The position numbers and the translations under genes were made by a program. Below are positions 5,639-23,427 of a stretch of 36,809 nt of DNA, in pieces. The notes beneath the pieces are model-generated. The model was not told the DNA's origin, did no database searches, and saw nothing but the letters and a program-made list of their open reading frames with translations. The first letter of the stretch is position 1. Each line of letters begins with the position of its first letter. The stretch is from contig JAGWMU010000007.1 in the NCBI GenBank assembly GCA_028873095.1, positions 1-36,809 of the forward strand, read 5' to 3'. The stretch is from Pseudomonadota bacterium (GTDB taxonomy: Bacteria; Pseudomonadota; Gammaproteobacteria; Xanthomonadales; Rhodanobacteraceae).

Positions 5639-6304
5639 ATGACGCTGCCCACTGTCGAACACGAAACCGCCGCCCACCCCACCCACAGCGTGATCTGGCT
5701 GCACGGCCTGGGTGCCGACGGCAACGACTTCGCGCCGATCGTGCCCGAACTGGTGGCGCCGGGCTGGCCGGCATTGCGCTTCGTGTTCCCGCATGCGCCG
5801 GTGCGGCCGGTGACGATCAACAACGGCATGTCGATGCGCGCCTGGTACGACATCGCCGGATTCGATCCGCATGCTCGCCAGGATGAGGCCGGCATCCGCG
5901 CCTCGATGCGCGAGGTGGAAACCCTGATCGCCCGCGAGCATGCCCGCGGCGTGCCCGGCGAACGGATCGTGCTGGCCGGCTTCTCGCAGGGCGGCGCGAT
6001 CGCCCTGGCGGCGGGCCTGTGCCACGGCGGGAAGCTCGCCGGCATCATCGCGCTGTCGACCTATCTGCCGATGTCCGCCACGCTGGTCGCCGAACGCGGC
6101 ACGGCCAACGCCGCCACGCCGATTTTCTGGGGGCACGGCACGGCCGATCCGGTGGTGGTGCTGCAGCGCGGCGTCGATTCGCGCGACCGGCTGCGGTCGC
6201 TGGGCTACCCGCTGGACTGGCATACCTACCCGATGGCGCACGCGGTCTGCGTCGAGGAAATCGCCGACCTGCGCGCGTGGCTGGGCCAGCGCCTGCTCCC
6301 GTAG
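5639..6304 (+). CDS. Carboxylesterase/phospholipase family alpha/beta hydrolase
   Basis: A 221-residue single-domain alpha/beta hydrolase of the bacterial carboxylesterase II (acyl-protein thioesterase-like) family. Motifs in order: WLHGLGADGNDF with the oxyanion HG (about 20-31), AWYD (68-71), nucleophile elbow GFSQGG (Ser116), HGTADPVV (Asp170) and PMAHAVC (His201). There is no signal peptide, so it should act in the cytosol on short-chain acyl esters or lysophospholipids. Length is typical for the family. Its stop codon TAG (6302-6304) is part of the REPIN-like repeat that starts at 6301, so the last residues may have been altered when the repeat arrived. It is divergent from the S9 peptidase. 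Confidence 0.93.
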   Translation: MTLPTVEHETAAHPTHSVIWLHGLGADGNDFAPIVPELVAPGWPALRFVFPHAPVRPVTINNGMSMRAWYDIAGFDPHARQDEAGIRASMREVETLIAREHARGVPGERIVLAGFSQGGAIALAAGLCHGGKLAGIIALSTYLPMSATLVAERGTANAATPIFWGHGTADPVVVLQRGVDSRDRLRSLGYPLDWHTYPMAHAVCVEEIADLRAWLGQRLLP

Positions 6305-6375
6305 GAGCCCACTCTGCGGGCGAATGTTTTTTGCCGCATTCGAGAAGAGCATTCGCGCACAAGGTGCGCTCCTAC
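6301..6375. repeat. REPIN-like inverted REP pair, copy A
   Basis: Starts GTAGGAGC and ends GCTCCTAC, the GTAG-plus-palindrome design of bacterial REP sequences in inverted pairs. This copy is the most diverged of four in the window (others at 10639, 20953 and 22686). It supplies the TAG stop of the esterase gene. A possible further diverged half-unit, CGATCCTAC, lies at about 6398-6406. Confidence 0.78.
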
Positions 6376-6440
6376 CCACACAAGCCTGCCTCGGAGCGCG
6401 ATCCTACGGCGCTCCCCGCGCATGCGGCATACTTGCCGGC

Positions 6441-7511
6441 ATGCCCGAATCCATCCCCGCCAGCCGCGGCCCGCGCGACCGCATCGACTACAGCCCGCTG
6501 CCGGATTTCTGCCAGCTGCCGGCGCTGTTCGCGCTGTTCGTGGTGGGCGCGCTGACGGTGACGGTGATGTGGCTGGCGCGGGACAACCAGCGCGACTGGC
6601 CCGCCTACAGCGTCAGCATGCTGTTCGTCACGTGGCTGACCCTGGTGATCGCGGTGACCGTGTGCAAGCTGCGGGCGTCGCTGCAGCGGCTGCCCGGCCA
6701 CACCCCGTACTTCGGCGTGTGGCTGCTGATCGTGCTGATCGTGGCCGTCGCCAGCGCGCTGGCGCACTGGTTCGACGGCGCGCTGCAGATGCAGATGATC
6801 GGCAGCGGCGCGTTGGTCTTCGTGCGCGACAACGTGCTGATCGCGGCCCTGCTCGGCGCCGCGATGCTGCGCTACTTCTACGTGCTGACGCAGTGGCAGA
6901 CGCGGCTGGCCGCGGCCACCCGGGCGCAGGTCGAGGCGTTGCAGGCGCGCATCCGGCCGCACTTCCTGTTCAACAGCATGAACACGGTGGCCGCCCTGAT
7001 CCGGGTCGATCCGGTGGCCGCCGAGCGCACGGTGGAGGATCTGTCCGAACTGTTCCGCGCCGCCCTGGGCCAGCACGACACCGACGACGGCACGCTGGGC
7101 GAGGAGCTGGCGCTGATCGAGCGTTACCTGGCGATCGAGCAGCTGCGGCTGGGCGAGCGCCTGCGCGTGCGCCGCGAGCTGGACGGGCTGCCGGCGGATT
7201 TCCCGCTGCCGCGCCTGCTGCTGCAGCCGCTGGTGGAGAACGCGGTGCGCCACGGCATCCAGCCGCTGCGCGACGGCGGCGAGGTGGTGCTTCGCGGCCG
7301 GCGCGACGGCGCCGGCATCCGCATCGAGATCGTCAACCCGCTGCCGGCCACGCCCGCCGAACCGGGCAGCGGCCACGGGCTGGACAGCGTGCGCCAGCGC
7401 GTCGCCTTTCGCTACGGGCCGCGCTCCAGGATGACCGCCGCCGCGCAGGGCGACCGCTTCGTGGTGCTGCTGCAGTTGCCGGGATCGTCCGCGGCGGGGC
7501 CGTCCGCATGA
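6441..7511 (+). CDS. algZ: AlgZ/FimS-type sensor histidine kinase
   Basis: A 356-residue LytS/YehU-type histidine kinase. The start ATG at 6441 (MPESIPASRG) is the first in a plausible position; the frame is open upstream only through repeat and esterase sequence. Residues about 25-150 hold four membrane segments. A linker helix leads to the H-box RPHFLFNSMN (phospho-acceptor His174) of the His_kinase family, then an unorthodox HATPase domain with LLQPLVENAVRHGI (N-box) and GSGHGLDSVRQR (G-box). It should phosphorylate the regulator encoded by the next gene, whose start overlaps this stop (ATGA). In Pseudomonas the homologous pair controls twitching and minor pilin genes; the same role here is supported by the pilin operon 6.5 kb downstream. 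Confidence 0.9.
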   Translation: MPESIPASRGPRDRIDYSPLPDFCQLPALFALFVVGALTVTVMWLARDNQRDWPAYSVSMLFVTWLTLVIAVTVCKLRASLQRLPGHTPYFGVWLLIVLIVAVASALAHWFDGALQMQMIGSGALVFVRDNVLIAALLGAAMLRYFYVLTQWQTRLAAATRAQVEALQARIRPHFLFNSMNTVAALIRVDPVAAERTVEDLSELFRAALGQHDTDDGTLGEELALIERYLAIEQLRLGERLRVRRELDGLPADFPLPRLLLQPLVENAVRHGIQPLRDGGEVVLRGRRDGAGIRIEIVNPLPATPAEPGSGHGLDSVRQRVAFRYGPRSRMTAAAQGDRFVVLLQLPGSSAAGPSA

Positions 7512-8215
7512 TGCGCGTGCTGATCGTCGACGACGAACCGCTGGCGCGGGCGCGGCTGGCCGCGCTGCTCGGCGAGTGCGATGCGGTGGAGGTCGTCGGC
7601 AGCGTCGGCGACGGCGAAAGCGCGCTCGCCGCGATCAACCGGCTGCAACCGGATCTGCTGCTGCTGGACGTCAACATGCCCGGCCTCGACGGCACCGCGC
7701 TGGCGCAGCGGCTGGGCGACCGCGCACGGCCGCAGGTGGTTTTCTGCACCGCCTACGAAGCGCACGCGCTCAAGGCGTTCGAGCTGGGCGCGGTCGACTA
7801 CCTGCTCAAGCCGGTGCGCCTGGAGCGGCTGCGGGAGGCCTTGCAGCGCGCCCGCCAGCGGCTCGCCGAGGTGCCGCGCGAAGCGGTCGCCTGGCTGCAC
7901 GGCCGGCTGCGCGGCGAGGAGATCCGCATCGCGCTGGACGAGGTGATCTGCCTGCTCGCCGAGGAAAAATACGTGGTCGTGCAGCATCGCCGCGGCGAAC
8001 TGCTGATCGAGGAATCGCTGCGCCAGCTGGAAGAGGCCTACCCCGACCAGCTGATCCGCCTGCACCGCAACTGCCTGGTGCCGCCGGCGCGCCTGCTCGG
8101 CATCAGGACTCTCGCCGACGGCCGCGTGCTGGCGCGCCTGGACGGCACCGAACTCGGCCCGGAAATCAGCCGGCGCAACCTGCCGGCGGTGCGCAAGCTG
8201 TTGCGGCTGGGCTGA
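7508..8215 (+). CDS. algR: AlgR-type LytTR response regulator
   Basis: A 235-residue response regulator. An N-terminal receiver domain (about 1-120) has the acidic pair in LIVDDE, the phospho-acceptor in LLLDVNMPG (Asp54), and the conserved Lys in LLKPVR. The C-terminal LytTR DNA-binding domain (about 130-235) includes EEKYVVVQHRRGELLIEESL and IRLHRNCLVPP. The start is the first or second codon of ATGATG (7508 or 7511), and it overlaps the stop of algZ, so the two are translationally coupled. It probably binds a CCGTTCGTC-like box; a near match precedes fimT at 13955. It ends 13 bases before the convergent folD. Confidence 0.92.
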   Translation: MMRVLIVDDEPLARARLAALLGECDAVEVVGSVGDGESALAAINRLQPDLLLLDVNMPGLDGTALAQRLGDRARPQVVFCTAYEAHALKAFELGAVDYLLKPVRLERLREALQRARQRLAEVPREAVAWLHGRLRGEEIRIALDEVICLLAEEKYVVVQHRRGELLIEESLRQLEEAYPDQLIRLHRNCLVPPARLLGIRTLADGRVLARLDGTELGPEISRRNLPAVRKLLRLG

Positions 8216-13870: not shown

Positions 13871-13954
13871 GCGCGGGCGCCTCGCGTTCGGAGGCGGCAT
13901 GTGACCGCGGTCAACTTCGCCGCGCGCGAATCGGCCGCTGATCGGGGAAATCCT

Positions 13955-13964
13955 ACCGTTTGTC
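13955..13964 (+). promoter_or_regulatory. Candidate AlgR-binding box upstream of fimT
   Basis: ACCGTTTGTC differs by one base from the ACCGTTCGTC sequence bound by AlgR in Pseudomonas. It lies about 50 bases upstream of a -10-like TACAGT (13997-14002), which has no good -35, as expected for an activated promoter. The minor pilin operon begins at 14030. Confidence 0.5.
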
Positions 13965-13996
13965 GGCCGGGTGCTGGCGGGCGGGGGGCGAATGGG

Positions 13997-14002
13997 TACA
14001 GT
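13997..14002 (+). promoter_or_regulatory. Candidate -10 element of the minor pilin operon
   Basis: TACAGT at 13997-14002, with no recognisable -35 seventeen bases upstream (CTGGCG). Transcription would start near 14009, giving a leader of about 20 nt with a GGGAG ribosome-binding site before the ATG at 14030. Confidence 0.35.
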
Positions 14003-14029
14003 GCGCACAGGGGTATCAGGGAGAATTCC

Positions 14030-14704
14030 ATGCAGGTCATGTCGTGTCGGCGGGGCGCTCCGCTGATGGAAGCGCCGAACTCCGCGGAGCTGAGCGATCG
14101 ATCGCCTGGCCGCGGTGCCCGCCTGCCACGGTCCGGGGCGGCGACCGCAAGGCGTCGCGGGCGAGGCTTCACCCTGGTCGAGCTGATGATCACCATGGCG
14201 GTGGCGCTGGTGCTGATCATGATCGCCGTGCCCAGCTTCAAGACCATGACCCTTTCCAACAAGCTCACCACCACCGCCAACGACCTGGTCGGCGCGATCA
14301 ACGTCGCGCGGATGGAGGCGATCAAGACCAACTCCAATACCCAGCTGTGCAGCGATTCGTCCGCCAGCAACACCACCGGCACGAGCGACACGCTGGGCAA
14401 CGCATGCAATGCCAGCACGCAGGTCGGGGCGGTGTATGCGCTGATCGGCGGCACCACGCCCACAGCCCAGCTGGTGCGGGCTCCCGTCGTCGGCATCGTG
14501 ACGCCGCTGCAGCTCAGCGGCAGCATCACGGCGCTGCGCTACAACGGGCAGGGGCTGGCAGAGGCTGTCGGCACGACGACCCCCTATACCGGTCTGGTTG
14601 CCGACATCTATACCAGTTCGATCAGCACCGACAATCATCGCTGCATCCGCATGACCGCCGGCTCGATCATCGTCACCAGCACCAGCACGGGAACGTGCCC
14701 ATGA
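14030..14704 (+). CDS. fimT: Minor pseudopilin FimT/FimU (GspH family)
   Basis: A 224-residue type IV minor pilin. The prepilin peptidase site is GRG^FTLVELMITM, with Gly46 at -1 and Glu51 as the conserved +5 residue, followed by a hydrophobic helix (about 47-68). The C-terminal part (80-224) fits the GspH/FimT fold, with Cys pairs that may form disulphides. The start ATG at 14030 has GGGAG at 14019-14023 (about six bases upstream). The leader before the cleavage site is 46 residues, far longer than the usual 6-15, and is rich in Arg, Ser and Pro. Its stop overlaps the pilV start (ATGA at 14701-14704). First gene of the operon; in Pseudomonas FimU primes pilus assembly with PilVWXE and PilY1. 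Confidence 0.88.
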   Translation: MQVMSCRRGAPLMEAPNSAELSDRSPGRGARLPRSGAATARRRGRGFTLVELMITMAVALVLIMIAVPSFKTMTLSNKLTTTANDLVGAINVARMEAIKTNSNTQLCSDSSASNTTGTSDTLGNACNASTQVGAVYALIGGTTPTAQLVRAPVVGIVTPLQLSGSITALRYNGQGLAEAVGTTTPYTGLVADIYTSSISTDNHRCIRMTAGSIIVTSTSTGTCP

Positions 14705-15294
14705 TGAACACTCTCTTCTCCGCCATCACCGCCGTTCCGGCAGGCACGGTCAGAACCTCGCCGAAGTCGGCCGAACAGACGCATGCGGCGTCGGCAATGC
14801 ATGTGTCGATAGTGCCCGGTCCATCGTCACGGCCCATGCGCAACCGGCGCAAGGCGCAGTCCGGCGTCGGCCTGATCGAGGTGCTGGTGGCGGTGCTGGT
14901 GCTGTCGATCGGCTTTCTGGGCGTCGCCGCGCTGCAGGCCATGTCGCTGTCCACCAACAACGGCGCGATGGAGCGCAGCATGGCCACGATTGCCAGTTAT
15001 TCGATCATGGACGCGATGCGGGCCGACATCGCCAATGCCGGGACCACAGCCTACAACACCACGGTCAAGGGCAACGCGTGCCCGACGACGACGACGACCC
15101 TGGCCGAGACCCAGCTCAACCTGTGGTGCAACCAGCTGGCCAAGACCCTTGGTGCGTCGGCGACCACCCAGGGCACGATTGACTGCCAGGGTGCGAACCC
15201 CGTCAACTGCAAAGTCACCATCGCCTTCGACGACAGCCGGTCCGGCATGGGCGGCAGCAGCAACCAGAAGATCGTCACCCAGGGCATGCTATGA
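14701..15294 (+). CDS. pilV: Type IV pilus modification protein PilV
   Basis: A 197-residue minor pilin if read from the coupled ATG at 14701. The processing site is AQSG^VGLIEVLVAVLVLSIG, with Gly55 at -1 and Glu60 at +5. The first hydrophobic helix and the downstream LQAMSLSTNNGAMERS segment match PilV. An internal ATG at 14836 (MRNRRKAQSG) would give a conventional 10-residue leader, but no good ribosome-binding site precedes it, and the overlap with fimT favours 14701. The mature part has four Cys. Its stop overlaps the pilW start (ATGA at 15291). It is part of the minor pilin complex at the pilus tip. Confidence 0.86.
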   Translation: MMNTLFSAITAVPAGTVRTSPKSAEQTHAASAMHVSIVPGPSSRPMRNRRKAQSGVGLIEVLVAVLVLSIGFLGVAALQAMSLSTNNGAMERSMATIASYSIMDAMRADIANAGTTAYNTTVKGNACPTTTTTLAETQLNLWCNQLAKTLGASATTQGTIDCQGANPVNCKVTIAFDDSRSGMGGSSNQKIVTQGML

Positions 15295-16346
15295 GCGACC
15301 ATCCCGTGAATCGCAGCGGTTCGGCCCGGCGCCGGTGTCGGCGCGCGCATGGCTTCACCCTGATCGAGCTGATGGTGGCCATGCTGCTGGGCCTGATCGT
15401 GATTGCCGGCGTGGTCAGCGTATTCCTGGCCGGCCAGCAGTCCTACCGCACCAACCAGGCGCTGGGCGACGTGCAGGACGGTTCGCGCATCGCCTTCGAG
15501 ATGATGGCGCGCGACATCCGCAATGCCGGGCTCACCGGTTGCAACAACAACGGGCGCATCGCCAATGTGCTCAACCCGGTGGCGGGCAGCGGCTGGTGGA
15601 CCAACCTGGGCGTGGCCGTGCAGGGCTACGATAATACGCAGATCGATCCGGCGATCGCCTTCGGCACCACGTCGTCGCCGGTGACGCGGGTGACCAATAC
15701 CGACTCGCTACAGCTCATCGGCGCGGCCGATTCGGGTTTGAGCGTGGCCCCTTCTCCTGCCGTGACCGCCGCCAATTTCAAGCTCAACGATCCGACGACG
15801 GACCTGGTGAAGGGCGACATCATCATCATATGCGATCCCGACCACGCCGCCATCGCCCAGATCACCGATTACAAGAGTACCAACGTCACGGTCGTGCACA
15901 ATACGGGGTCCCTTACGCCGGGCAACTGCTCCAAGGGTCTGGGCTACCCCACCGACTGCACCAGCACCAACGGCAACACTTATCAGTTCGGGGCCAACTC
16001 GCAGGTTTTCAAACTGGCCGCAACCGACTGGTTCATCGGCAACAGCGCCAATGCCGCCAGCGGCAGATCGCTGTATCGCATGTATCTGGTCAACAATGCC
16101 GGCACGCCCACGGCCACCGTGCAGGAAATGGTGCCCGACGTGACCGACATGCAGATCCTGTACCACCAGAGTGGAGGTACAGGATTCGTGACCGCGACGA
16201 CGATCGGCGCTGCGAACTGGACCAAGGTCGATGCCGCACAGGTCACCTTGACCGTGCAGAGCGACTTCCAGCGCGCCGGCACCGACACCAAGCCGCTGTC
16301 GCGCACGTTTACCGCCACCACCACGATTCGCAACCGGGTGAACTGA
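15291..16346 (+). CDS. pilW: Minor pilin PilW
   Basis: A 351-residue minor pilin, the largest pseudopilin of the set. The leader is 21 residues, with the processing site RAHG^FTLIELMVAMLLGLIV (Gly21, Glu26). After the helix come SVFLAGQQSYRTNQALGDVQ and FEMMARDIRNAGLTGC, typical of PilW. The C-terminal part carries FTATTTIRNRVN, as in other PilW proteins. It acts in the PilVWX subcomplex that links the tip protein PilY1 to the pilus. Translation is coupled to pilV by ATGA, and pilX starts 2 bases after its stop. Confidence 0.9.
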   Translation: MSDHPVNRSGSARRRCRRAHGFTLIELMVAMLLGLIVIAGVVSVFLAGQQSYRTNQALGDVQDGSRIAFEMMARDIRNAGLTGCNNNGRIANVLNPVAGSGWWTNLGVAVQGYDNTQIDPAIAFGTTSSPVTRVTNTDSLQLIGAADSGLSVAPSPAVTAANFKLNDPTTDLVKGDIIIICDPDHAAIAQITDYKSTNVTVVHNTGSLTPGNCSKGLGYPTDCTSTNGNTYQFGANSQVFKLAATDWFIGNSANAASGRSLYRMYLVNNAGTPTATVQEMVPDVTDMQILYHQSGGTGFVTATTIGAANWTKVDAAQVTLTVQSDFQRAGTDTKPLSRTFTATTTIRNRVN

Positions 16347-16347
16347 G

Positions 16348-16989
16348 ATGAGCCACGAACCCGTACTCCAATGGCCGCACGCTGCAGGCCGGGACATCAC
16401 TGCCGCCGCGGCATCCGGCATCCCGCGCGCAGCGCTGCATTCCGCCCGTGCGCACCGCCAGCGTGGCGTGGCGCTGGTAGTGGCGCTGATCCTGCTGGTG
16501 GTGATCACCCTGGTCGGCCTGGCCGCCGTGCGCGGCACCATCATGCAGCAGAAGATGGCCTCCAACCTGTTCGACCAGCAGATCGCTTTCCAGAGCGCCG
16601 AGGCCGCGATGCGCGTGGCGGCGGCGCAGGTCGCCACCAACCCCGGCATCGTGGCGCGCAATTGCGCGGCCGGCGGCGTGATCTGCCTGGTCAATCCGTT
16701 CACCGATTCGAAGCTGCCGGCCGGCAGCATTCAAACGGTTACGTCAGGCCAGTTCACGACCAGCACGGTCGCCGCCAGCTCACCGCAATTCGTGGTGGAG
16801 AACATGGGCAATTTTGCCGACCCCAGTTCCAGCACGGGCTTCAACCAGAGCGCCAACGCCAAGCAGTACCAGGCCCCGGGCGCCTCGACCACGGCGATTT
16901 TTTACCGGATCACGGCCCGCAGCGGCGATCCCGCCGTGGTGGGCGACCGCGCGGTGGTCACGCTGCAGGCGATGATCAAGCAGGGTTGA
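16348..16989 (+). CDS. pilX: Minor pilin PilX
   Basis: A 213-residue minor pilin. The 40-residue leader ends HRQRG^VALVVALILLVVITLVGLAAV; the residue at +5 is hydrophobic instead of Glu, as is usual for PilX and GspK. QQKMASNLFDQQIAFQSAEA after the helix is a PilX hallmark. A mature part with Cys residues about 110-118 follows. It starts 2 bases after the pilW stop, so it is cotranslated with it. Its start codon lacks a strong ribosome-binding site of its own, which fits coupling. It completes the PilV-PilW-PilX complex. Confidence 0.86.
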   Translation: MSHEPVLQWPHAAGRDITAAAASGIPRAALHSARAHRQRGVALVVALILLVVITLVGLAAVRGTIMQQKMASNLFDQQIAFQSAEAAMRVAAAQVATNPGIVARNCAAGGVICLVNPFTDSKLPAGSIQTVTSGQFTTSTVAASSPQFVVENMGNFADPSSSTGFNQSANAKQYQAPGASTTAIFYRITARSGDPAVVGDRAVVTLQAMIKQG

Positions 16990-17058
16990 GCAGCAGGCTT
17001 CGACAGTCTCGGGTGCATGGGCCTTCCCATGCCGCAGCATCTCAAGAGCGGAACCGTC

Positions 17059-20000
17059 ATGAACATCATCTTCCGTCCACGCAGCAAGGCCGCCCGCTTC
17101 CTCGGCAGGCTGCTGTACTGCAGCCTGTCCGTGTGGATGCTGGGCGCCGTCGGCGCACCGGCCCGGGCAGTCACGGTCGACCAGCAGCCGCTGACCGTCC
17201 AGAAGCCGCTGCCGCCGAACATCACCCTGATGCTGGACGACTCCGGCTCGATGGCATGGGATTTCATGCCGGATGCGGGTTATCTGGCCGGCAACATCAC
17301 GGCCACCGACGAATATGGGTATGGCGATACCTATCTGAGCGCGGATGCGTTGCGCAACGCGGCCGTCAACGGCACCTACTACAACCCGTCAGTCACCTAC
17401 ACGCCGGCGGTGCAGGCGAACGGGACGATTTACAATGCGACTGCACAGCCCAGCTTGACCAGCGCCTATACCGACGGGATTCAAAGTACCGGTAGCACGG
17501 ATGTGACGCAATTCACATCGGCCAGCCTGTGCGATTATAACGGCTGGAGTATGAGTCCGAGTGGTTGCCCCAGCTCCCTCTATTACTCTTTTCCGTACTA
17601 CACGGCATTTCCGTCCAGCGGCACGACCTATGCGCCGACGCTTTCTTGCAATTGGGGCGACAAGTCGACATTGATCAACGGCCTGCAGATGTGCCTGGTC
17701 AAATCGTCTTCGCCCGCGCAGTATTATGTGCCGACATACAACTGCACCAAGAGCAATGGTGACAAGTACAACTACGCCACCGGTTATTGCGAGTCGGGCA
17801 ACCCACGTTACAACTACCTTTTCACGTATACCAAAGGTCCGGCTGGCGGCACGTATACCCGCTATTATGTGGGTTCCTCCAGTTGCGCGGGGCAGACCAA
17901 TTGCGTGCTGGCCACCGATACATCGGGTGCCGCCGCGCCGAAAGGCGTGGCAGCGGGGCAGAACATCGCCAACTGGTTCTCGTATTACCACACCCGCATC
18001 CTGATGGCCAAGACCGGTCTGATGACCGCGTTTTCGGGCATCAATCCCACCTTCCGGATCGGTTTCGGTTCGATCGACGGCAACAACAAGAGCGGACTGC
18101 CATCTTCCAAATATTCTTATTCCGATACGTACAACGGGGGCACGAATTACATTGCGAATGTCCAGCCTTTCGGCGATGGTTCTTCCGGTACGCAGAAAAG
18201 CAATTTCTGGTCCTGGCTGGCCGGCGAGTCCGCCGGCAACGGTACGCCTTTGCGTCAGGCGCTGAACGCCGTCGGCCAGTATTATGAGACATCGCAACCC
18301 TGGCAGACTTCGGAAGACGATACGACCGAGCTGGCCTGCCGCCAGTCGTATACCATCCTGACCACCGACGGGTTCTGGAATGGCAATAACCTCGGCAATC
18401 CCAATATCGACGGCACCGCCGGCCCGACGAATACCAGTCCCAATGGCCAGAGTTACACCTACAACAACGTTGCGCCCTATGCGGACAGCTACAGCGATAC
18501 GCTGGCCGATGTCGCGATGAAGTACTGGAAAACGGATCTGCGCAGCACGGTGGCCAACGAGGTTCCGCCCAGCACGGACGATCCCGCCTTCTGGCAGCAC
18601 ATGACGACCTTCACCATGGGCCTTGGATTTGCGCCCCTGTACGCCGACCAGGCAACACCGATACCGATGGACCAGGTTTTCAGCTGGGCCAACGGCGGCA
18701 CGCCGATCAGCGGCTTCAGCTGGCCCCAGCCGGCTCCCAACTCGATCAACAATATCGCCGATCTGGCGCATGCCGCCGTCAACGGGCATGGCGGGTTTTT
18801 CTCCGCCACCAGCCCACAGTCGTTTCTCAGCGGCATTCAGGATGCGCTGAAGCGCGCCACCGCGCGCGTGGGCGCCGGCGCCAGCCTGGCGGCCAACTCC
18901 ACCCAGCTGAAGACCGGCACGGTCGCGTACCAGGCCAACTATATAACCTCGAAGTGGAAGGGCGACCTGGAGGCGTTCGCGGTGGACCCCAATACCGGCG
19001 CGATCGCCACCACTACCACCTGGACCGCGGTGACTGCGCTGCCGGCGGCCGCCAGCCGGAATATCTGGTCCTACAACCCGGCAGCGTCGACCAGCAAGCA
19101 GTTCGTGGCATTCCAGAATTCGACCTCCGGGTCCGGTTCCCCGCCCGCGCTTTCTTCCGCCGAGTTGTCCGCGCTCGGCAGCGGCGCCACCGCACAGGAG
19201 AACATGGTCAATTACCTGCGCGGCGACTCATCGCTGGAGCAGAAGAATATCGGCGGCATCTACCGCAACCGCGATACGCCGTTCGGCGACGTGGTCGATT
19301 CGCAGCCGATTTTTGTCGGTGCGCCCGATCCGAACGAGTTTTCCAATGAAACGTTCACCGGAGCCAGCAGTTACCTCGCGTTCGCAAGCAACACCGCCTT
19401 GCGCGCGCCGCTGATCTTCGTGGCGGCGAACGACGGCATGCTGCATGCACTGGATGCGACGACCGGGGCGGAAACCTTCGCCTACATTCCTGCCGCGGTC
19501 ATCACCAGCGGGCTGAGCCAGCTGTCGGATCCCAACTACGGCGGCACGGTGCCGCACCAGTACTTCAACGACGGCGAGCTGACGGTGGCCGACGCCTATT
19601 TCTCCAGCGCCTGGCACACCGTGGCCGTGGGCACCACCGGCCGCGGCACCGCCGAGGCGGTCTATGCCTTCGACGTCACCGATCCGACCAATATCCAGTT
19701 TCTGTGGGAACGCTCCGCCGGCGACGGCCTGACCAACAGCGCCTATATCGGCCAGATGACCGGCAAGCCGATCATTGCCCAGACCGCGGACAGCAGCTGG
19801 TCGGTGCTGATCGGCAACGGCTACAACAGCGCGAAAGGGGTGGCGGCCTTGTTGCAGTTCAATCTTGCCACCGGCGCGCTCACCGTGCATACCACGACCG
19901 ACACCAGCACCAGCAACGGCCTGGCCGCCCCGGCCGTGTGGCTGGACAATCCCACCAATGGCGTCAGCACCGAGGCCTATGCCGGCGACCTGGACGGCCA

Positions 20001-20823
20001 CGTGTGGTCGTTCATCCTCAACAACGGCACCACCGGCACGCCCAGCAGCACGGGCAGCCTGTTGTTCACCGCCACAGATGCCAGCGGCAACGTGCAGCCG
20101 ATCACCGCGGGCATGCTGGCAGGCAAGGACCCCGCGACCGGCAACGTCTGGGTGTTCTTCGGTACCGGCGAATACCTGAGCTCCGCCGATCTCACCAACC
20201 TGGCGACCCAGAGCTGGTACGGATTGATCGTGCAGTCGAGCGACAGCACCCTGGTCAGCAATCTCTCCACGGGCCGTGCCGCGCTGGTGCAGCGCGCGAT
20301 CGTGGCGGAAACCGCCGGTAACACCACCACCAATCCGCCGGTGCTGCCGGCACGGGCCGTGACGCCACCCTCGACCCCTTCGGACATGACCGGCAAATCC
20401 GGCTGGTACATGGACCTCACCTCGCCGGTCAACGGCGCCGAAGGCGAACGGATCGTCACCCCCAACCAGTTCCAGGGCAATCTGCTGCTGGGTACCACGC
20501 GGATTCCCCAGGCCGTCGATCTGTGCAACCCCTCCGGGCGCGGCTGGATCATGGCGATCGACCCGTTCACCGGCACCAATCCTGTTTCGAACTTCTTCGA
20601 CCTCAATGGCGACGGCCTGATCAACAGTTCGGACACGATCACGGTGAACGGAAAGCAGGTCGCTGCCGCGGGCATGGGCTTCGACTCGCTGCCCAACAAC
20701 CCGATCTTCGTGGGCAGCAGCATGCTGGTGAGCTTCGACAACGACACCAGACGCACTGTGAACACGTCCGGTTCGAGCGGCAGCATCCAACGGGTATCCT
20801 GGCGCGAGTTGATCAACCAGTGA
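17059..20823 (+). CDS. pilY1: Type IV pilus tip adhesin PilY1
   Basis: A 1254-residue PilY1 from ATG 17059. An in-frame ATG at 17017 exists, but the 17059 start has AAGAGCGGA upstream and gives a good signal peptide ending PARA. The N-terminal part has a von Willebrand factor A-like region with the MIDAS motif DDSGS (60-64). The C-terminal half is the PilY1/PQQ-like beta-propeller (about 740-1250), with FVAANDGMLHALDATTGAE and FDLNGDGLINSSD, an EF-hand-like Ca loop (Asp1181, Asn1183, Asp1185, Asn1189, Asp1192). An RGD tripeptide is present at 721-723. The protein is exported, sits at the pilus tip and controls extension, adhesion and surface sensing in related bacteria. Middle regions are Tyr/Ser/Thr/Asn-rich and less GC-rich than neighbours, typical of variable adhesin parts. 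Confidence 0.93.
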   Translation: MNIIFRPRSKAARFLGRLLYCSLSVWMLGAVGAPARAVTVDQQPLTVQKPLPPNITLMLDDSGSMAWDFMPDAGYLAGNITATDEYGYGDTYLSADALRNAAVNGTYYNPSVTYTPAVQANGTIYNATAQPSLTSAYTDGIQSTGSTDVTQFTSASLCDYNGWSMSPSGCPSSLYYSFPYYTAFPSSGTTYAPTLSCNWGDKSTLINGLQMCLVKSSSPAQYYVPTYNCTKSNGDKYNYATGYCESGNPRYNYLFTYTKGPAGGTYTRYYVGSSSCAGQTNCVLATDTSGAAAPKGVAAGQNIANWFSYYHTRILMAKTGLMTAFSGINPTFRIGFGSIDGNNKSGLPSSKYSYSDTYNGGTNYIANVQPFGDGSSGTQKSNFWSWLAGESAGNGTPLRQALNAVGQYYETSQPWQTSEDDTTELACRQSYTILTTDGFWNGNNLGNPNIDGTAGPTNTSPNGQSYTYNNVAPYADSYSDTLADVAMKYWKTDLRSTVANEVPPSTDDPAFWQHMTTFTMGLGFAPLYADQATPIPMDQVFSWANGGTPISGFSWPQPAPNSINNIADLAHAAVNGHGGFFSATSPQSFLSGIQDALKRATARVGAGASLAANSTQLKTGTVAYQANYITSKWKGDLEAFAVDPNTGAIATTTTWTAVTALPAAASRNIWSYNPAASTSKQFVAFQNSTSGSGSPPALSSAELSALGSGATAQENMVNYLRGDSSLEQKNIGGIYRNRDTPFGDVVDSQPIFVGAPDPNEFSNETFTGASSYLAFASNTALRAPLIFVAANDGMLHALDATTGAETFAYIPAAVITSGLSQLSDPNYGGTVPHQYFNDGELTVADAYFSSAWHTVAVGTTGRGTAEAVYAFDVTDPTNIQFLWERSAGDGLTNSAYIGQMTGKPIIAQTADSSWSVLIGNGYNSAKGVAALLQFNLATGALTVHTTTDTSTSNGLAAPAVWLDNPTNGVSTEAYAGDLDGHVWSFILNNGTTGTPSSTGSLLFTATDASGNVQPITAGMLAGKDPATGNVWVFFGTGEYLSSADLTNLATQSWYGLIVQSSDSTLVSNLSTGRAALVQRAIVAETAGNTTTNPPVLPARAVTPPSTPSDMTGKSGWYMDLTSPVNGAEGERIVTPNQFQGNLLLGTTRIPQAVDLCNPSGRGWIMAIDPFTGTNPVSNFFDLNGDGLINSSDTITVNGKQVAAAGMGFDSLPNNPIFVGSSMLVSFDNDTRRTVNTSGSSGSIQRVSWRELINQ

Positions 20824-20834
20824 AGGAATCGGCG

Positions 20835-21509
20835 ATGGAATGGCTCATGTCAATCGGCAGCAGGTCGGTGTCCGGCTTCGGCGAGTGCGAGGCGCCGACC
20901 TCGGCAGGGTTCGATCAGGATCGTCTTCGGGCATCCCGGACAACCCCGGTACGTAGGAGCGCACCCTGTGCGCGAAAGGACATTGCAATGCGAGACCGGA
21001 AGGTTCGCGCACAGGGTGCGCTCCAACGACGGGTGCCGGGAACACGGGGGTCCGGGATTTCCCGGCGCGGCAGCGCGGGCTTCACCCTGATCGAACTGAT
21101 GATCGTGGTGGCGATCATCGCCGTGCTGACCGCGATCGCGTATCCGGCGTACACCAGCTATCTCCTCAAGACCCGCCGCGCGGCGGCCGAGGGTTGCCTG
21201 TCGGAATACGCCAATTACATGGAGCGGTACTACACCACCAATCTGCGCTACGACAAGGACGGTTCCCCGACACCGGTGACCAACCCGTTGGGGGTAACGC
21301 TGACCCTGGACTGCGCCTCGCCCCAGCAGACCGGGGACAACTACGGCTACACCGTGCCGACAGAGAGCGCTACTGCCTACACCGTTCAGGCCGCGCCCGT
21401 GGCGGGCTCGCCGCAGGCCAAGGACACCTTGTGCGGCACGCTTACGCTGGACCAGAAGGGCACGCGCAACATAGTGGGCGGCACGGGCACCGTGGACCAG
21501 TGCTGGTAG
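20835..21509 (+). CDS. pilE: PilE-like minor pilin with REPIN-encoded leader
   Basis: The ATG at 20835 has GAAGGA (20822-20827) well placed and follows pilY1 by 11 bases; from it the product is 224 residues. The processing site is GSAG^FTLIELMIVVAIIAVLTAI (Gly82, Glu87), followed by AYPAYTSYLLKTRRAAAEGC, typical of PilE. The C-terminal part ends with a Cys-containing segment DQCW. The leader would be 82 residues; about 25 of these (roughly 40-64) are encoded by a REPIN-like repeat at 20953-21027. Alternative starts within or after the repeat are ATG 20989 (31-residue leader) and GTG 21033 (16-residue leader). Which is used cannot be decided by eye. It is the last gene of the operon, convergent with recD 34 bases away. 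Confidence 0.85.
   Translation: MEWLMSIGSRSVSGFGECEAPTSAGFDQDRLRASRTTPVRRSAPCARKDIAMRDRKVRAQGALQRRVPGTRGSGISRRGSAGFTLIELMIVVAIIAVLTAIAYPAYTSYLLKTRRAAAEGCLSEYANYMERYYTTNLRYDKDGSPTPVTNPLGVTLTLDCASPQQTGDNYGYTVPTESATAYTVQAAPVAGSPQAKDTLCGTLTLDQKGTRNIVGGTGTVDQCW
20953..21027. repeat. REPIN-like inverted REP pair, copy C, within pilE leader
   Basis: GTAGGAGCGCACCCTGTGCG at 20953-20972 and its near-perfect inverse ending GGTGCGCTCCAAC at 21027, with a centre of about 27 bases. It lies wholly inside the pilE open frame and contributes no stop codon in that frame. Confidence 0.88.
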
Positions 21510-21543: not shown

Positions 21544-23427
21544 TCACACACCCAGGCGTTCGCGCAGGCCGCCCTGGCGCTGCACCGGGCGGCTCAGCGC
21601 CGACCGCAGCGCGGCGTCGGTACACCAGATTTCGGCGTGGCTTTGGGCGCGCGAGACCGCGGTGTAGACCAGTTCGCGGTTGAGCACGCGGTTGTCCGCA
21701 TCCGGCGGCAGCAGCACCGCCACGTCGCGGTATTCCGAGCCCTGGCTGCGGTGGACGGTGATCGCCCAGGCGCTGTCGTGGGCGGGCAGCGCGCGCGGCG
21801 AAAAGCTGCGCAGGCCGGCGCTGCCGTCGCGGTCGCTCAGCTCGAACCACACGCGCAGCCCCTCGCTGCCTTCCAGCGCGATGCCGACGTCGCCGTTGAA
21901 CAGGCCGCGCGCGTAGTCGTTGCGGGTGACGATCACCGGCCGGCCGTGATACCAGGCGCGGCCGGCGTCGATGCCGCAACGGGCGCCGAGCCGCCGCGCG
22001 ACCAGCGCATTGACCCCGTGCGCGCCGAACGGCCCGTCGCGCAGCGCGCACAGGATCTGCAGCTGGCGCAGGTTCCGCAATGACGCGCCGGCGTCGCCGG
22101 GCGCGGTCAGCAGCGACTGCAGCAGCGCGCCATGGCGTTCGATCCAGCCGTCGACGCAGGCGCGCAGGCCGTCGGGATCGGCGCAGCGGCGCAGTTCCAG
22201 GTCGCCGTCGGCCCGCGTGCTCAGCAGCCGGTCCAGCCAGGCCGGGTCGGGGGCCTGGCGCAGCGCCTCGATGCCGCGCTGCAGGCCGCTGCCGGCGCGC
22301 CAGGAATGGGTCAGCGTGAGCACCTGGCCGGCCAGCGCGGCGTGCTCCGTCACCCTGGCCGGCGCGTGCTGCAGCAGCGGCGCGAGCAGACCGGCCAGCG
22401 CCGGCGGCAGCTGCTCCGGCGGCGCGCTGGCGACGATGTCGGCAAGCACCGAGCCGGCCTCGACCGAGGCGAGCTGGCCCGGGTCGCCGAGCAGGATCAG
22501 CAGCGCCTCGGGACGCATCGCCTCCAGCAGCTGGCGCATCATCGCCAGATCGACCATCGATGCCTCGTCGACCACCACGATGTCCTCGGCCAGCGGATCG
22601 TGCGGCCCGCGGCTGCAGGCGTTGTCCATCGGCCGGTAGCCGAGCAGGCGGTGCAGCGTGCGCGCGTCGGCATGCGGTATCTGCTGTAGGAGCGCACCCT
22701 GTGCGCGAAAGAAGTCGCCATGCGGCAACGTGTTTTCGCGCACAGGGTACGCTCCTGCGGGGTCGAGTGCGGCTTGCAGCTCGGCCTTGCCCCTGGCGAT
22801 GGCCTGCACCAGGCGCTGGGCGGCCTTGCCGGTGGGCGCGGCCAGCGCGATCGACGGCCGTGCCGGCAGGCCGCAGGCCCTGGCGTGGCGCAGCAGCATC
22901 AGCAGCATGCGCACGACGGTGGTGGTCTTGCCGGTGCCGGGGCCGCCGGTGAGCACGAACAGGCGCGCGCCGGGCACCGCGGCCACGGCGGCGCGCTGCC
23001 CATCGGTGCTGCCGCGCGGCATGCCGGCGAACAGCGCCTCCAGGTCGGCGGCCAGCGCGTCGGCGGGAATCGGCAGCGAGCGCTGCGCGCAGCGCCGCAG
23101 GATCGCCGCGGCGAGCTGCGCCTCGTGCCGCCAGTTGCGCCAGAGGAAGAAGCGGTTCTGCGCGTCGAGCACGAACGGCGTGAACGCCGATCCGTCGCCG
23201 ACCCAGGCGTGCGCGCGCAGCGCGTCCAGCGCAGCGGCATCGAAGCCGGCATCGGTGTGCGGGTCGGCGAGCCACGCGCAGGAATGGCCTTGGCCCTCGG
23301 CGCGGCCGGCGGCCCGCACGGCCGCGGCCAGCGGCGCCGAGCCGGTGCGCCGGAACACCCATTGCGCCAGGGTCTGGTCGATCGCGCGTTCGTCGGCGGC
23401 GTCGGCGTCGATCATGGGGCGATTCAT
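21544..23427 (-). CDS. recD: Exodeoxyribonuclease V subunit RecD
   Basis: A 627-residue SF1B helicase, the 5'-3' motor of RecBCD. Motifs in order: TGGPGTGKTTTV (Walker A, 160-171), APTGKAAQR (198-205), VVVDEASMVDL (Walker B), ILLGDPGQLASVEAGSVL (motif III), then the C-terminal YARGLFNGDVGIAL and ITVHRSQGSEY (motif V) and ELVYTAVSRAQ (motif VI). The start ATG overlaps the recB stop (ATGA at 23424-23427). Residues about 224-248 are encoded by a REPIN-like repeat, between the motif Ia region and ARTLHRLLGY. In E. coli RecD this is a short linker, so the repeat lengthens it. The frame stays open and all helicase motifs are intact, so the protein is probably functional. Confidence 0.93.
   Translation of the reverse strand: MNRPMIDADAADERAIDQTLAQWVFRRTGSAPLAAAVRAAGRAEGQGHSCAWLADPHTDAGFDAAALDALRAHAWVGDGSAFTPFVLDAQNRFFLWRNWRHEAQLAAAILRRCAQRSLPIPADALAADLEALFAGMPRGSTDGQRAAVAAVPGARLFVLTGGPGTGKTTTVVRMLLMLLRHARACGLPARPSIALAAPTGKAAQRLVQAIARGKAELQAALDPAGAYPVRENTLPHGDFFRAQGALLQQIPHADARTLHRLLGYRPMDNACSRGPHDPLAEDIVVVDEASMVDLAMMRQLLEAMRPEALLILLGDPGQLASVEAGSVLADIVASAPPEQLPPALAGLLAPLLQHAPARVTEHAALAGQVLTLTHSWRAGSGLQRGIEALRQAPDPAWLDRLLSTRADGDLELRRCADPDGLRACVDGWIERHGALLQSLLTAPGDAGASLRNLRQLQILCALRDGPFGAHGVNALVARRLGARCGIDAGRAWYHGRPVIVTRNDYARGLFNGDVGIALEGSEGLRVWFELSDRDGSAGLRSFSPRALPAHDSAWAITVHRSQGSEYRDVAVLLPPDADNRVLNRELVYTAVSRAQSHAEIWCTDAALRSALSRPVQRQGGLRERLGV
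22686..22758. repeat. REPIN-like inverted REP pair, copy D, inside recD
   Basis: GTAGGAGCGCACCCTGTGCG begins at 22686, and the inverse arm ends GGTACGCTCCTGC at 22758. It is fully inside the recD coding region and is read in frame on the minus strand. Translation of one arm gives RAQGALL, the same as that of copy C in pilE. Confidence 0.88.

Follow-up and report, generated by a model that had tools for sequence, protein, structure and literature searches.

The window, the whole stretch of 36,809 nucleotides analysed here, carries on its plus strand a minor-pilin operon and a two-component regulatory pair. The operon opens with fimU (14030–14704), which encodes a GspH-family minor prepilin (Pfam GspH and N_methyl), and continues with pilV (14704–15294; TIGR02523 above cut-off), pilW (15291–16346; Pfam N_methyl, with PilW just below cut-off), pilX (16348–16989; Pfam PilX_N), pilY1 (17059–20823, with a start at 17017 or 17059; Pfam T4P_PilY1) and a pilE-like minor pilin gene (20988–21509; Pfam N_methyl and ComP_DUS). 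The genome's algZ–algR orthologues are an algZ/fimS-like kinase gene (6441–7511; Pfam His_kinase and a weak HATPase_c) and algR (7508–8215), whose product combines a receiver and a LytTR domain (Pfam Response_reg and LytTR) and contains Asp54 when numbered from the MM start. A dispersed REP-like repeat, roughly TTCGCGCACAAGGTGCGCTCCTAC, recurs in the window, for example at about 6300–6400, near 20950 and near 22700; such repeats precede algZ and also stand directly before the pilE-like gene.

A preliminary description had singled out one AlgR-like box upstream of fimU, ACCGTTTGTC at 13955–13964 on the plus strand, as matching nine of the ten bases of an AlgR site, and it does agree with ACCGTTCGTC at 9/10 positions. 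The box contains the 9-mer CCGTTTGTC and forms the second, downstream member of a direct repeat, CCGCTGATC-N12-CCGTTTGTC, which spans 13935–13964 with a 21-bp period. Judged by this layout, the predicted operator is the tandem repeat, of which the box is only half. The upstream half-site CCGCTGATC (13935–13943) aligns with CCGCTTGTC of the relatives and is weaker than the genus consensus. The 12-bp spacer ggggaaatccta (13944–13955) is moderately conserved in sequence and invariant in length in the relatives, where the period is exactly 21 bp, so that the arrangement is that of a LytTR tandem operator, with two direct repeats separated by about 12 bp. The downstream half-site CCGTTTGTC (13956–13964), conserved in sequence and position, is identical to algD-RB3, a published lower-affinity AlgR site of P. 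aeruginosa (PMC4064291). On the far side of the repeat from fimU lies a CRP/Vfr/Clp-like palindrome, TGTGACCGCGGTCAAC (13900–13915), which matches TGTGA-N6-TCACA at 8/10 positions and is situated 35 bp upstream of the repeat and at −130 to −115 from the fimU ATG. A −10-like hexamer, TACAGT (13997–14002), begins 32 bp past the end of the repeat; the distance from the box to this hexamer had been put at about 50 bases and has to be corrected to these 32 bp, measured from the box end, while the reported lack of a −35 hexamer upstream of TACAGT holds. The ribosome-binding site AGGGAG (14018–14023), assigned from its sequence, is conserved as tatcagggagaattccATG.

Statistics on the single box are uninformative in both the window and the genome. 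The window holds 3 matches at ≤1 mismatch versus 3.45 expected, and the proposed genome search for enrichment of the box returned 4 exact occurrences of ACCGTTYGTC, where the reversed control gave 18; a box on its own occurs no more often than by chance. With a weight matrix that includes the window sequence and its genus relatives, the dimer at the 21-bp period scores 26.1, the next best in the window 12.3 and the maximum of 60 shuffled windows 16.2. In the 2.88-Mb assembly, the pattern CCGYTNRTC-N12-CCGYTNGTC has a single occurrence, the site at the fimU promoter.

The preliminary description had named a lack of conservation in related strains as grounds for giving up the box, and the box proved to be conserved in the genus, in the family and in other families. 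In 26 Rhodanobacter genomes, the box before fimU is the second copy of the repeat, typically CCGCTTGTC-N12-CCGCTTGTC. When 46 fimU loci from the family's other genera were scored with a weight matrix from the genus half-sites, a strong pair at period 21 turned up in 40 of them and 0–1 at each of periods 15–20 and 22–28, and in a class-wide sample of 89 FimU/FimT-like loci a strong period-21 pair was present in 29, with ≤3 at any other period and 1 in shuffled sequences; the loci are related, so these counts are not independent events, but the comparison of spacings shares the same relatedness. Many further families of Gammaproteobacteria also have the repeat before FimU/FimT-like pilins. The palindrome and the −10 hexamer are features that were not used in finding the repeat in the family loci. 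A TGTGA-N6-TCACA-like palindrome (≥8/10) starts 34–35 bp before the repeat in 20/41 family loci, against an expectation of ~0.0004 per locus, and four of the five remaining family palindromes lie at 24, 45 or 46 bp, about one helical turn (10–11 bp) off. The same offset of 34–35 bp is found in most genus loci, and the class-wide loci are mostly without a palindrome. The best −10-like hexamer begins 32 bp beyond the repeat in 17/26 genus FimU loci and 16/41 family loci. A putative CRP/Vfr site with a conserved offset is present upstream of the candidate AlgR sites, and the aligned loci themselves show the two sites, how they are conserved and that their spacing is fixed.

The closest known counterpart is the P. 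aeruginosa fimU-pilVWXY1Y2E promoter, which shares with the window the operon, the AlgZR pair and two AlgR sites (PMC8787478, PMC4064291). There, phosphorylated AlgR and Vfr bind PfimU together, and the Vfr site has its centre at −130 and −115 relative to the ATG (PMC8787478), which are the coordinates of the window palindrome. The AlgR sites published for P. aeruginosa fimU are CCGTTTGGC and CCCTCGGGC, and direct repeats with a 12-bp spacing are described as not the general rule for AlgR sites; in the window, set against this published description, both half-sites are recognisable and the spacing is exact. The tandem operators of the LytTR regulators AgrA, VirR and PlnC/PlnD consist, as in the window, of a pair of imperfect direct repeats with some 12 bp between them (PMC4064291), but the window half-site is AlgR-like (CCGYTNRTC) and unlike theirs. 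Among the P. aeruginosa algD sites RB1, RB2 and RB3, the last shares its 9-mer with the window, whereas tens to hundreds of bases separate the algD sites, which do not form a tandem. In P. aeruginosa, minor pilins and PilY1 also feed back on FimS–AlgR (PMC5979040).

Because of the conserved position, the 21-bp spacing, the fixed distance to the −10 and the genomes that have no LytTR protein besides AlgR, we consider the presence of an AlgR-type operator before fimU well supported by the sequence comparisons. These properties of the operator sustain the earlier proposal of AlgR control of fimU, whereas the single box by itself and the proximity of algZR do not. The kinase, regulator and operon do lie within 8 kb, with 7.6 kb from the algZ start to the fimU start, but we reject this proximity as evidence of direct control: only three close relatives, G000, G021 and G037, have algR and fimU within ~10 kb of each other, and the majority of Rhodanobacter genomes carry the operator at a great distance from algR. 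Since the two genes are more than 1 Mb apart in the complete or near-complete genomes G001 and G007, their closeness is a feature of one lineage and not the basis of regulation.

The repeat layout is common to LytTR proteins, and another such regulator might read the repeat with AlgR as a bystander. The window genome has two LytTR proteins, the second being a response regulator encoded next to a LytS-like kinase on contig C17 (G000:C17:5418-5714, L147), and the Rhodanobacter genomes checked have 3–6. We nevertheless regard this explanation as improbable, given that exactly one LytTR protein, AlgR, is present in 21/23 distant operator-bearing genomes from outside the order (for most of the 21, the coordinates of the sole LytTR protein coincide with the AlgR match), that the half-site is a published AlgR site, and that fimU is under AlgR control in P. 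aeruginosa. Within the genus, 44/45 genomes have AlgR as a single-copy orthologue. A class-wide comparison of AlgR with operator presence lends modest support (47/81 versus 1/8, Fisher p ~0.02, after re-scoring one genome in which a contig end truncates the LytTR gene, taken as AlgR). The genome G527 carries the operator and no LytTR gene was seen in it, and a PDB search with the LytTR domain gave no match.

The palindrome at its fixed place could instead mean that a CRP-family protein is the main driver of the operon and that the repeat is minor or repressive, which we think less probable still: the repeat is the more widely conserved of the two, being found at class-wide loci that mostly have no palindrome, and it is the element nearest the −10. 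An orthologue of Clp/Vfr, of the CRP family, was found in 6/6 genus genomes checked, including the two nearest relatives of the window genome, and its best PDB match is 3iwz, annotated as a catabolite activation-like protein, with E. coli CRP and Vfr ranking next; a Clp gene was not found in the window's assembly, which is 82% complete. We give hardly any credence to a functionless chance match in GC-rich sequence. A single box is indeed no commoner than expected, but its exact spacing and position across genera and families, together with the independent CRP-like and −10 elements, refute such a match.

With considerable confidence we interpret the element as a predicted activator-dependent promoter of the fimU-pilVWXY1E operon of a Rhodanobacter, composed of an AlgR tandem operator and a CRP-family site. 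Two LytTR domains of AlgR would lie side by side on 13935–13943 and 13956–13964, at about −74 to −45 relative to a start that we place near 14009, and the pair would bring RNA polymerase to the −10 hexamer at 13997, which has no −35. A CRP-family protein, the Clp/Vfr orthologue, would occupy 13900–13915 at a fixed helical phase and provide a second input. From the sites we infer which proteins bind, that they activate the operon and that AlgR is phosphorylated, presumably by AlgZ/FimS.

To our knowledge, nearly all work on AlgR concerns P. aeruginosa. The AlgR sites of that species are unlike those of other LytTR regulators, and it was unclear there whether one or two of the fimU sites are occupied (PMC4064291, PMC8787478). 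The conserved tandem operator with its fixed spacing suggests that a cooperative AlgR pair is the original mode, with the CRP protein at a fixed helical phase. The operon encodes the tip proteins of the twitching pilus, genes that AlgR most likely switches on. The tandem pattern also offers a simple means to find AlgR targets where pilus regulation is unstudied. Under the strict genus regulon pattern CCGYTNRTC-N12-CCGYTNGTC, 26/32 matches adjoin minor-pilin operons; genome-wide dimer counts in the genus are below the reversed-pattern control, so that the counts alone give no enrichment and it is the location that is informative. AlgR may accordingly be dedicated to minor pilins in Rhodanobacter, unlike its global role in P. 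aeruginosa. Some 150 bp before a second minor-pilin operon, which is PilE-first, the repeat was also seen in reverse orientation (L211:4672-4701 in G026 and L212:5800-5829 in G013), possibly as a second target or by chance.

The same promoter and first codons precede three kinds of operon: FimU-first, as in the window, PilV-first (e.g. G002, G004, G014 and G022) and PilE-first (G017, with an altered start codon). Non-orthologous minor-pilin operons behind a window-type promoter were observed at L200-L203, L206 and L210 (G004, G022, G002, G017, G014 and G015). Downstream of both FimU- and PilV-type operons, recD is found at several loci and is itself of two divergent kinds, with 36–43% or 64–77% identity. 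FimU-type genes start with ATG CAA GTC TTG TCG CGT CAG CGA GGC GTC TCG CTG ATC GAA, which is also the start of the PilV-type gene, and only then continue with their own leader and GFTLVEL. In the window, the first 15 fimU codons (14030–14074) form a degraded version of the PilV-type leader MQVLSRQRGVSLIEV, matched at codon level between FimU- and PilV-type operons of the genus. The window FimU leader is unusual in running for about 45 residues up to the cleavage site G^FTLVEL (14030–14165), and the PilV-leader start on FimU would explain this length, the leader apparently being a fused relic of a PilV leader. We give roughly even chances to a broader scenario, in which the tandem CCGYTNRTC-N12-CCGYTNRTC is an ancestral and widespread AlgR operator of gammaproteobacterial minor-pilin operons, and the Rhodanobacter promoter with its 15 codons is a fixed docking stub for exchanged non-orthologous operons that has left the PilV leader as an in-frame fossil on FimU. 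If this is true, any incoming operon falls under the control of AlgR and the CRP protein. MQVLSRQR-like leaders are also present on FimU of other genera of the family (L153, L157, L173 and L174), and the PilV-leader relic may predate Rhodanobacter.
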